This document shows, one piece after another, positions 2 to 27,991 of a stretch of 47,046 bases of DNA. Under the pieces are notes generated by a model, which was not told the origin of the DNA, did no database searches, and was given only the letters and a program-made list of their open reading frames with translations. This stretch comes from a virus, in IMG/VR virus record IMGVR_UViG_3300032294_002279, positions 1 through 47,046 of that record; one strand, 5' to 3'. The position numbers and the translations under genes were made by a program. Every line of letters starts with the position of its first letter. The first letter of the stretch is position 1.

Positions 2-223
2 AGAAAGAACAAGAGGGCACGCAGAGCAGCTCGCATTCAAAACGTGAGCGACCTGAAATGCTGGGCAGTCTGCTCCCGTCTCATGCGTCTCGTCTTAGAC
101 TACACTTCACACCCTCTGTTTATCTACCCCGAAGACAGCACCCGTGACGTGCTGATGCGCTACGCAGAACGCTGGGGTTTTGAGAGGGGGTCAGACAACG
201 TCTGGGTCCGCGTCTGCATCTAA
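2..223 (+). CDS. Hypothetical protein, 3' part only
   Basis: This open frame enters from the left edge and ends at a TAA at 221-223, leaving the last 73 residues of a longer protein. The visible part starts very basic (many Arg and Lys in the first 12 residues). It then becomes a mixed alpha/beta-like stretch containing LMRLVLDY and ending in VWVRVCI. I recognise no family. Its last 33 bases overlap the 3' end of the oppositely oriented NblA-like gene, so the two genes converge. The frame has no in-frame stop and reads naturally, which supports coding, but the function is unknown. Confidence 0.6.
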   Translation, partial: RKNKRARRAARIQNVSDLKCWAVCSRLMRLVLDYTSHPLFIYPEDSTRDVLMRYAERWGFERGSDNVWVRVCI

Positions 224-445
224 AAGAGGCGACTCTCCGCCATACAGTTCGGTTAACGGCGGAAGTTCCACGCCGGTCCGAGCGCACCAGTTGACGAGCC
301 TCGTAAACAACCCGCCCTTGATCAGGTATAGCCGATGTATATCCCCGAGGATCTTCACAAGCTCCTCTTTGGTTAGCTTGTCTGCGTCCCTGATGACCCG
401 CTGGTGAAGGAAACTTTGTTCAGCGGTGAGCTCGAAGAGACGCAT
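191..445 (-). CDS. nblA: NblA-like phycobilisome degradation adaptor
   Basis: NblA is a small helical adaptor that binds phycobilisomes and directs them to Clp protease. This 84-residue protein aligns without gaps, over about 49 residues (FELTAEQSF through LFTRLVN), with the Synechococcus NblA pattern as I remember it. Shared features are F-x-L-[ST]-x-E-Q-x-F, then a [TS]-[KR]-E-[ED]-L turn, then an R-x-x-x-x-[KH]-x-x-[IL]-F helix. NblA proteins are usually about 60 residues, and this one has an extra acidic C-terminal tail. I chose the ATG at 445; a TTG at 490 would add 15 residues with no better ribosome binding site. The gene is alone on the minus strand among plus-strand replication genes, as expected for an independently expressed host-takeover gene. 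An unrelated small helical protein is the main alternative. Confidence 0.6.
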   Translation of the reverse strand: MRLFELTAEQSFLHQRVIRDADKLTKEELVKILGDIHRLYLIKGGLFTRLVNWCARTGVELPPLTELYGGESPLLDADADPDVV

Positions 446-532
446 GAGACTCGGTGACCCTGCGTTAAGCCTAGGATCAAGGCACTGCAAACAGGATTAG
501 AATTCATCTTTTCCTAACGTAATCAAATCACC

Positions 533-26175: not shown

Positions 26176-26472
26176 TCATTCTACCGAATCTTCAGAATCA
26201 TCGAACATCTGTACATTAGTTTCTACAGTGACTCCTATTTGATTCATAACTGTTTTATACGCTCTTTCTTTACACATTAATTTTAAAATCATGACCCAAA
26301 AAAACTGATCTCGGTCGCTTCGATTATTTAAAGATTTCGCTTTGGCTCGGATCCTGGTTAGCACAAATTCATCTTCCAGCGTCAGTCCGCAATGAAGATT
26401 TTGCATTCCTCCATCGAAATTTGCGGTAGCCACGGGCGGAACCCACTCTCTGCTTATCCTACACCGAATCAT
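26176..26472 (-). CDS. Small protein with distant NblA-like region
   Basis: The 98-residue product (ATG 26472; alternative start 26406) contains LTLEDEFVLTRIRAKAKS and then NRSDRDQFFWVMILKLMCKERAYKTVM. The L-T-L-E-x-E-F start, the charged turn and the K-L-M-x-K-E helix follow the NblA pattern. However, the loop between them is four residues longer than in the classic protein. The tail is acidic (MFDDSEDSVE). A phycobilisome-related role is possible, but an unrelated helical virion protein is equally possible. It lies 18 bases from the virion lysin, its downstream neighbour on the same strand. Confidence 0.35.
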   Translation of the reverse strand: MIRCRISREWVPPVATANFDGGMQNLHCGLTLEDEFVLTRIRAKAKSLNNRSDRDQFFWVMILKLMCKERAYKTVMNQIGVTVETNVQMFDDSEDSVE

Positions 26473-26490
26473 TAACGTACGTCTCAAGGG

Positions 26491-26518: not shown

Positions 26519-26601
26519 ATCAAGGTTAAGGCCGGCTCCCGACCTTTACAAAGCGCAAGAACCTCGTTATCATTACTGAGCCATCCTCATTCACACGGCA
26601 G

Positions 26602-26871
26602 ATGTTTGAAGGTAAGACTCTCCTGACGATTGCTGAGACTGCAGAGTTCCTCAACTGTTCCAGCGGCTTCGTGCGCAAGCGCATCGCACTGACCGAATCC
26701 AATAACCCCGGCGGCTGGCCCAAGGACATCTATGTAAACCTGCAGCCTTCCGGTGCTAAGTCTCTGTATCGGATCAACAAAGATGCGCTTCAGAGCTATC
26801 TGAACGGTGCTGATTCGTCGGCTATAGTAGAAGACGACGCAATGGAAACCGCAGTAGCAGCGGCTTTTTGA
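26602..26871 (+). CDS. Excisionase-like HTH DNA-binding protein
   Basis: The 89-residue protein has LTIAETAEFLNCSSGFVRKRIA (about 8-29), an HTH_17/excisionase-type motif. YRINKDALQSYL follows near 57-68 as the second helix element. Its length and arrangement are those of small phage regulators or Xis-like proteins. The protein could regulate its own island. It ends directly before the Dps-like gene, with a possible TTG start overlap, so the two genes are in one transcript. No integrase is in the window. Confidence 0.6.
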   Translation: MFEGKTLLTIAETAEFLNCSSGFVRKRIALTESNNPGGWPKDIYVNLQPSGAKSLYRINKDALQSYLNGADSSAIVEDDAMETAVAAAF

Positions 26872-26873
26872 AC

Positions 26874-27407
26874 ATGACGGACACCGAGACTTTCGCTTCG
26901 ACTCCTACGTCAGCTTTGATGCCCACGCAAATCGAAGAGCGGATTATCTCGGTGGAACCAGAGCCCCAGCTTCAGGTCCTTCTCTTGAATCTGGTGGCTC
27001 TGTCGTCATACGCTCATCAGCTATACACACAAGCACATCTAATTCACTTAAACGTCGAGGGGCCTTTATTTCTCCCTATCCACGAGTTTTTAAAAGGTCA
27101 GTACGATTTACACGTAGGACACTTTGATAAACTGGCCGAGTTTGTCCGTACTATGGACACTCTTATGCCGATGTGTCAGAAAGGATTGTTAGGGGCGTAT
27201 AGGGGTTTCAAAAACTGCAAGTCTTATGAAACTCGCGATATGTTAGTGACTTATCTAAAAAACTTAGAAGATTTTGGTATGCAGTCCAAAGATTTGGGTG
27301 AATTAGCGCGCACAGTTAAAGCTCCTGATGTGGAGAATTATGCAGCTCAATTAGTAGATGACTCTTTTAAAGCAGCGTGGTTTTTAAAGAGCACTCTTCG
27401 CGCTTAA
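26874..27407 (+). CDS. Dps-like mini-ferritin
   Basis: Dps proteins store iron and detoxify peroxide in a 12-subunit shell. This 177-residue protein has the family's core, H-L-N-V-E-G-P-L-F-x-x-I-H-E-F-x-x-x-Q-Y (residues 58-77). The ferroxidase ligands have the exact Listeria Dps spacing: H58, H70 (12 apart), D85 (15 apart) and E89 (4 apart). The Trp next to the first His is Leu here. The N-terminal tail is acidic/polar without the Lys cluster that binds DNA in E. coli Dps, so DNA binding is uncertain. I chose ATG 26874 over TTG 26868. It is transcribed rightward against the virion genes, with an HTH gene upstream. Confidence 0.78.
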   Translation: MTDTETFASTPTSALMPTQIEERIISVEPEPQLQVLLLNLVALSSYAHQLYTQAHLIHLNVEGPLFLPIHEFLKGQYDLHVGHFDKLAEFVRTMDTLMPMCQKGLLGAYRGFKNCKSYETRDMLVTYLKNLEDFGMQSKDLGELARTVKAPDVENYAAQLVDDSFKAAWFLKSTLRA

Positions 27408-27991
27408 GTTTGAACCCATTGGCCGCCCACATAGATATAAAGACCTGAGGGAGCCGCTGCCTGGTACATTAAAGTTCCCTCGGCGGCTATAAGAGGTAGT
27501 CCGGAAGTAACAGCTAAACCGGAGGCTTGGATACACCCAGAAGAGACAATGGCGGAATAGGCGCCTGAAGCGGCGATAGCGCCAGAAGCATTTACCGCTC
27601 CAGAAGCCAGAATACATCCAGACGCTAAAACGCATCCAGAAGCCATAACGGCTCCGGAGGCAGAAACAGCAAAATCCGCGTACGCTGAACCAATAACCTG
27701 CCACGCGGAACCGGTCCAGACCTTCATATAATACGCAGATGTACTACTGTCGACCCATGTTTCTCCGGCTGAATTACCCGCAATTCCTGCAGGGGAAGAA
27801 TTAGGAGCTGTAGTTGAATAGTGGTTAGGGCCTATCTTTCGAATATTTCCGCCTGAATCTTGAAAATAAAGACCTGGATCACTACTTCCGAAGGACAAAG
27901 CCAGTCGGCCGACCTGGGCGGCTGTTGTATTAGGTCTGTCGGATGATTGTGGAGATCTGTTACTTAGAAGAATATACGGAGTGGACGTCAT
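27404..27991 (-). CDS. Fibre-like virion protein with ASG repeats
   Basis: The 195-residue protein has a middle run of 'x-ASG' repeats (VMASGCVLASGCILASGAVNASGAI, about 113-137), a Trp motif near residues 75-95 (TWVDSSTSAYYMKVWTGSAW) and an end VGGQWVQT. The Trp motif resembles those in the adhesin at 18641-20281. It likely belongs to the tail appendages. It converges with the Dps-like gene with a four-base overlap, so the two genes' ends interleave. Confidence 0.6.
   Translation of the reverse strand: MTSTPYILLSNRSPQSSDRPNTTAAQVGRLALSFGSSDPGLYFQDSGGNIRKIGPNHYSTTAPNSSPAGIAGNSAGETWVDSSTSAYYMKVWTGSAWQVIGSAYADFAVSASGAVMASGCVLASGCILASGAVNASGAIAASGAYSAIVSSGCIQASGLAVTSGLPLIAAEGTLMYQAAAPSGLYIYVGGQWVQT

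Follow-up and report, generated by a model that had tools for sequence, protein, structure and literature searches.

A predicted Dps-type mini-ferritin of an S-EIV1-like cyanophage, with four of the five canonical ferroxidase ligands and an HTH partner gene

The canonical ferroxidase centre of Dps proteins is formed by five ligands, two His and one Asp from one subunit and one Asp and one Glu from the other (PMC6675082); the ligand residues of E. coli Dps are listed in PMC9140674. In the His-type centre of NpDps4 and TeDpsA, a His is found at position 78, and the cyanobacterial NpDps4 has no acid at position 67 (PMC6675082). Dps proteins encoded by phages are already known as such. Those of gut and Lactobacillus phages are discussed in the literature (PMC8008677, PMC6669764), and the cyanophage S-EIV1 has an annotated "DNA-binding ferritin-like protein" (AHV82153, KJ410740), while our search of the literature on cyanophage Dps found nothing specific. 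A Dps query matched 60 GenBank phage records at E ≤ 1e-3, some of them short unannotated contigs, and thus the view of the first-pass annotation that few Dps occur in phages was too strong.

The whole stretch of DNA analysed here (47,046 nucleotides, referred to as the window) was assigned, from its predicted genes, to an S-EIV1-like cyanophage, a virus of cyanobacteria. It shares with Synechococcus phage S-EIV1 the major capsid protein (69% identical), portal (42%), terminase (52%), primase (28%) and a glycosyltransferase (42%). Among 18 records retrieved through the capsid gene, all of which are possible fragments, 13 carried dps, including 6 of the 8 that were longer than 60 kb; Dps has been kept by most of the sampled long contigs of this widespread cyanophage group.

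The dps gene of the window (26874-27407, plus strand, ATG to TAA) encodes 177 amino acids, and its close relatives use the same ATG start. The first-pass annotation had placed a Dps-type mini-ferritin at exactly these coordinates; a search against PF00210, which it had proposed as a check, and a monomer structure prediction bore it out. The protein matched PF00210 (Ferritin/Dps superfamily) with 50.7 bits (E 2.4e-13), above the curated cut-off of 24.5, and PHROG 3636 with E 2e-23, and its best solved relatives by sequence were Dps proteins, with 3kwo from C. jejuni ranking first. An AlphaFold2 monomer model, for which an alignment of 48 sequences (the window and viral ones) was the input, had a pLDDT of 79.6 and helices at residues 33-60, 66-92, 102-108, 120-147 and 151-175. 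The predicted helix order, A-B-BC-C-D, is that of Dps: a four-helix bundle with a BC helix and without a fifth C-terminal helix. The top Foldseek matches of the model were all Dps (e.g., 8ff9, 2c41 from T. elongatus and 3kwo), and for many of them the TM-score by target was 0.82-0.90 at an rmsd of about 2 Å. The cut-off of the NCBIfam equivalog of cyanobacterial DpsA (NF052461) was not reached (21.4 vs 300 bits). For the window dps and its nearest relatives, dN/dS was 0.03-0.06, indicating strong purifying selection, with many dS values near saturation. We conclude, from sequence and model, that the gene encodes a Dps-type mini-ferritin with a predicted Dps fold.

The inter-subunit Dps ligands His51 and His63, and Asp78 and Glu82, are matched in the window sequence by H58 (27045-27047, plus strand like all codons given here), H70 (27081-27083), D85 (27126-27128) and E89 (27138-27140), respectively, which are invariant among relatives showing 43-94% identity to the window Dps; H55 (27036-27038) was listed with them. 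The spacing of 12, 15 and 4 residues and the HLNVEGPLF and HEFLKGQY blocks are present as had been described. However, the position of the fifth canonical ligand (Asp67 in E. coli) is taken by Lys74 (27093-27095), neither Asp nor Glu. The predicted ferroxidase site has four of the five canonical ligands, and as canonical Dps has five (PMC6675082), the earlier description of the ligands as complete cannot be kept.

The same change runs through the lineage, for which we collected 149 distinct proteins, namely the window protein and 148 others drawn from 267 loci. H55, H58, H70, D85 and E89 are all kept in 139 of them, and the fifth position of these 139 is K in 119, G in 12, R in 3, N in 2, Q in 2 and T in 1, with no D or E in any. 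By comparison, 12 of 14 Dps examined from outside the lineage have D or E there, the exceptions being those of cyanophage S-SRM01 (G) and H. cinaedi CAIP (Q). Since the fifth ligand is absent from every ligand-bearing member, the activity may be diminished or different in kind. Furthermore, the HWN motif of Dps has become HLN in nearly all lineage members.

With canonical Dps/NapA (C. jejuni 3kwo, P. aeruginosa 8ff9, T. elongatus 2c41), the window protein has the fold, the HxxH...H...D...E ligands and the size in common, but it is only about 21-24% identical to them, has HLN for HWN and has Lys in place of the acid that lies four residues beyond the second His; H80 and D95 are specific to the viral family. 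It resembles NpDps4 in the absence of an acid at position 67, although it keeps an Asp (D85) where the His-type centre has His78. The S-EIV1 homologue, from the same phage lineage, is 44-50% identical and has the same four ligands, but it differs in its basic, Lys-containing N-terminal tail, in the lack of an HTH partner and in its gene neighbourhood. Other phage-encoded Dps, namely those of Gratiaviridae, of Lactobacillus, Proteus, Cronobacter and Streptomyces phages and of S-SRM01, fall outside the S-EIV1-type clade in the tree, several of them on long, uncertain branches; in the ones compared, the first His is part of HW, and most have an acid at the fifth position. Three BFVD matches (A0A6J7WPK9, A0A6J7XDU5 and A0A6J7WIS1) are predictions for "prohead protease" proteins of uncultured phages with a Dps-like fold; these may be Dps-protease fusions, hinting at a link to the capsid.

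From the family, fold, ligands, tail, cassette, selection and single virus-only clade computed for the window Dps, we infer a cage, iron oxidation, control of peroxide and iron during infection and regulation by an HTH protein. Taken as a whole, the explanation that we favour, and consider probable, is a virus-specific Dps-type mini-ferritin which acts as an iron-binding and iron-oxidising cage, does not coat DNA and is made together with its HTH partner. During infection the protein, modelled here as a monomer, would assemble into a hollow dodecamer. Fe2+ would bind at the dimer interface, to H58 and H70 of one subunit and D85 and E89 of the other, and would be oxidised by O2 or H2O2, site B probably being weaker or rearranged because Lys74 takes the place of the acid. 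Iron would then be held inside the cage, and free iron and peroxide would fall in the infected photosynthetic cell. A role in a host whose photosystem is being dismantled can only be suggested, the context being one NblA-like ORF. This small ORF (191-490, minus strand) scored 18.9 bits against PF04485, under the cut-off of 25, and is a possible phycobilisome-degradation gene.

Not all members of the lineage have kept the site. H55N, H58S, H70S, D85N and W169G are all present in ten distinct proteins (loci L216-L224, L295 and L296; e.g., L216:3001-3531), which group together as a single clade (support 100/100; stem 0.28) inside the HTH-partnered group. Their dps genes lie at the same locus where inspected, with the HTH partner present and intact ORFs, and natural ligand-bearing and ligand-less versions of Dps occupy the same locus. 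In the first nine found (eight distinct), pairwise dN/dS was 0.03-0.08 where dS was measurable, with many dS values near saturation; pseudogenisation as the cause of the ligand loss was rejected on account of these values and the intact ORFs. The model of one ligand-less protein was Dps-like (pLDDT 80.0; Foldseek), its alignment having included ligand-bearing relatives. Sixteen aligned positions, including E62, Y77, H80, E89, R92, D95 and C101, are invariant in all 149 proteins. H55, H58, H70, D85 and W169 are the only nearly fixed residues that were swapped for one identical residue in all ten. Loss of the ligands, compared with other positions invariant in the ligand-bearing forms, was not significant (hypergeometric p 0.12), because F66, N155, K166 and W169, also otherwise invariant, had changed too. 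We found no literature report of joint ligand loss with fold, HTH partner and selection retained. The closest analogues are the Listeria innocua Dps laboratory mutants H31G and H31G-H43G (2bk6, 2bjy), from which the metal-site His were removed; those were engineered, whereas the viral clade lost the site in evolution and kept the gene.

As the ligand-less clade is under similar selection, the function of the protein may lie not only, or not mainly, in iron oxidation, and the sequences and the model suggest an iron-independent role in this clade. Either the shell would have a conserved role for which the metal site is dispensable, or the ligand-less clade would have acquired a new one. The first of these could be extended to the whole lineage, so that the conserved job of the viral cage would be iron-independent. 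It would serve a protein, the HTH partner or DNA as a scaffold or binding shell, and iron chemistry would be an inherited addition given up in the ligand-less clade. The well-supported clade, with its intact genes, predicted fold, HTH partner and low dN/dS, speaks for this, as do the positions that are invariant with or without ligands (H80, R92, D95 and C101 among them). We nevertheless regard it as unlikely, since every ligand is retained in 139 of the 149 proteins, which speaks for selection on iron chemistry across most of the lineage, and since the role in the ligand-less clade may be newly gained instead of old. A weaker form is somewhat easier to accept, and we put it forward tentatively: the Dps cage of S-EIV1-type phages may be selected at least partly independently of iron, the ligand-less clade being a natural separation of function in which the site was lost on one branch and the shell kept, and in the window's clade the cage may work with the HTH protein, in regulation or DNA tethering, which may replace the basic tail of the sister clade. 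With the ligand-less clade, the question of which functions a Dps cage has apart from iron oxidation becomes testable.

Returning to the iron-oxidising cage that we prefer for the window, its N-terminal tail (residues 1-28) is an acidic, low-confidence and probably disordered segment with 1 basic and 6 acidic residues, and a C-terminal tail is absent. The basic flexible tail of DNA-coating Dps was thus not found, in line with the Lys cluster having been reported missing in the first-pass annotation, and because of its absence the window Dps probably does not coat DNA. The gene directly upstream (26602-26871, plus strand) encodes an 89-aa excisionase/HTH_17-type DNA-binding protein and ends 2 nt before the dps ATG; its Pfam HTH_17 match (E 6.5e-5) is under the cut-off, but the gene is strongly conserved in the same place, so that the plus-strand pair noted earlier stands. 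Of the acidic-tail members, the window among them, all 93 with sufficient sequence had an HTH gene within 120 nt upstream of dps. Over 58 loci the HTH protein was more conserved than Dps (mean identity 71% vs 58%). A net basic tail was found in 50 members, including S-EIV1, all without the HTH gene; one further tail was neutral and five members were cut by contig ends. Every HTH-partnered Dps has a net acidic N-terminal tail, and in the sister clade the tail is net basic and the HTH gene absent, a pattern of which we found no report in the literature. Repeated co-evolution of tail charge and HTH partner was considered and rejected, as the association corresponds to one split in the tree and counts as one event, a single correlation.

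These tails also bear on the reading of the protein as a classic DNA-condensing Dps, which would protect phage or host DNA by coating it. Membership of the Dps family and the net basic, Lys-containing tails of the sister clade (e.g., QPKPRSPAKSK) would agree with it, but the composition of the window tail, the missing C-terminal tail and the net acidic tails of all 93 HTH-partnered members make it very improbable for the window.

In the window's subclade the dps cassette is a fixed HTH-dps pair sited among structural genes. A promoter-like element, TTTACA-N17-TATCAT (26545-26573, plus strand), lies 28 nt before the HTH start and is a candidate by sequence; all nine nearest relatives have retained it, one of them with TATTAT, whereas the bases around it vary. 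Beyond this intergenic promoter region there is a divergent small conserved gene (26176-26487, minus strand). Downstream, a convergent minor-tail-like gene (PHROG 356; 27404-27991, minus strand) follows, and the stops of the two genes overlap by 4 nt (27404-27407). Expression of dps would probably be controlled by the HTH protein, from the pair's own promoter, and not through the opposite-strand late operon, timing and regulation being read from gene order and the promoter-like match. In an 82-kb relative (G008; L213:2480-2743, minus strand), the HTH gene is at the same locus without dps, and the minor-tail gene is directly next to it.

The lineage Dps formed a single group (support 100/100), with a stem length of 5.9 changes per site, in a tree that also contained six other phage Dps and cellular Dps from sources other than host cyanobacterial chromosomes; some outside branches were long and their order unsure. 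The best cellular matches, from a plasmid collection, were at most about 30% identical. A pattern scan of 84,980 prokaryote genomes gave one relative, on a 3-kb contig of a metagenome-assembled genome. This relative (L030, WTIG01000115.1; Puniceicoccaceae-binned) encodes the C-terminal part of this viral Dps and is possibly a phage fragment in the bin. The neighbour genes are the same across the lineage. On these sequences, the 149 proteins make up a virus-only Dps clade, and HTH-dps appears to be a conserved locus of the phage lineage and, as far as testable, not a recent pick-up from a host. The first-pass annotation had likened the gene to a moron, and the two-gene island against the late, structural-gene strand with its own promoter-like element fits that description, but a recently acquired host dps is scarcely credible given the distant cellular matches, the single contig among the scanned genomes, the long and fully supported stem and the unchanged neighbours. 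The Dps would not be a stray host gene but would belong to an old virus-only lineage whose iron site has changed.

Two minor observations concern S-EIV1 itself. An intein (PF14890, E 1e-11) was detected inside its large terminase (L112:14080-16620), while the shorter, 507-aa terminase of the window is apparently without one. The gene after dps in S-EIV1 (L001:12408-13874) is annotated as a sulfate adenylyltransferase; no Pfam or NCBIfam model matched it, and the annotation looks unsupported.
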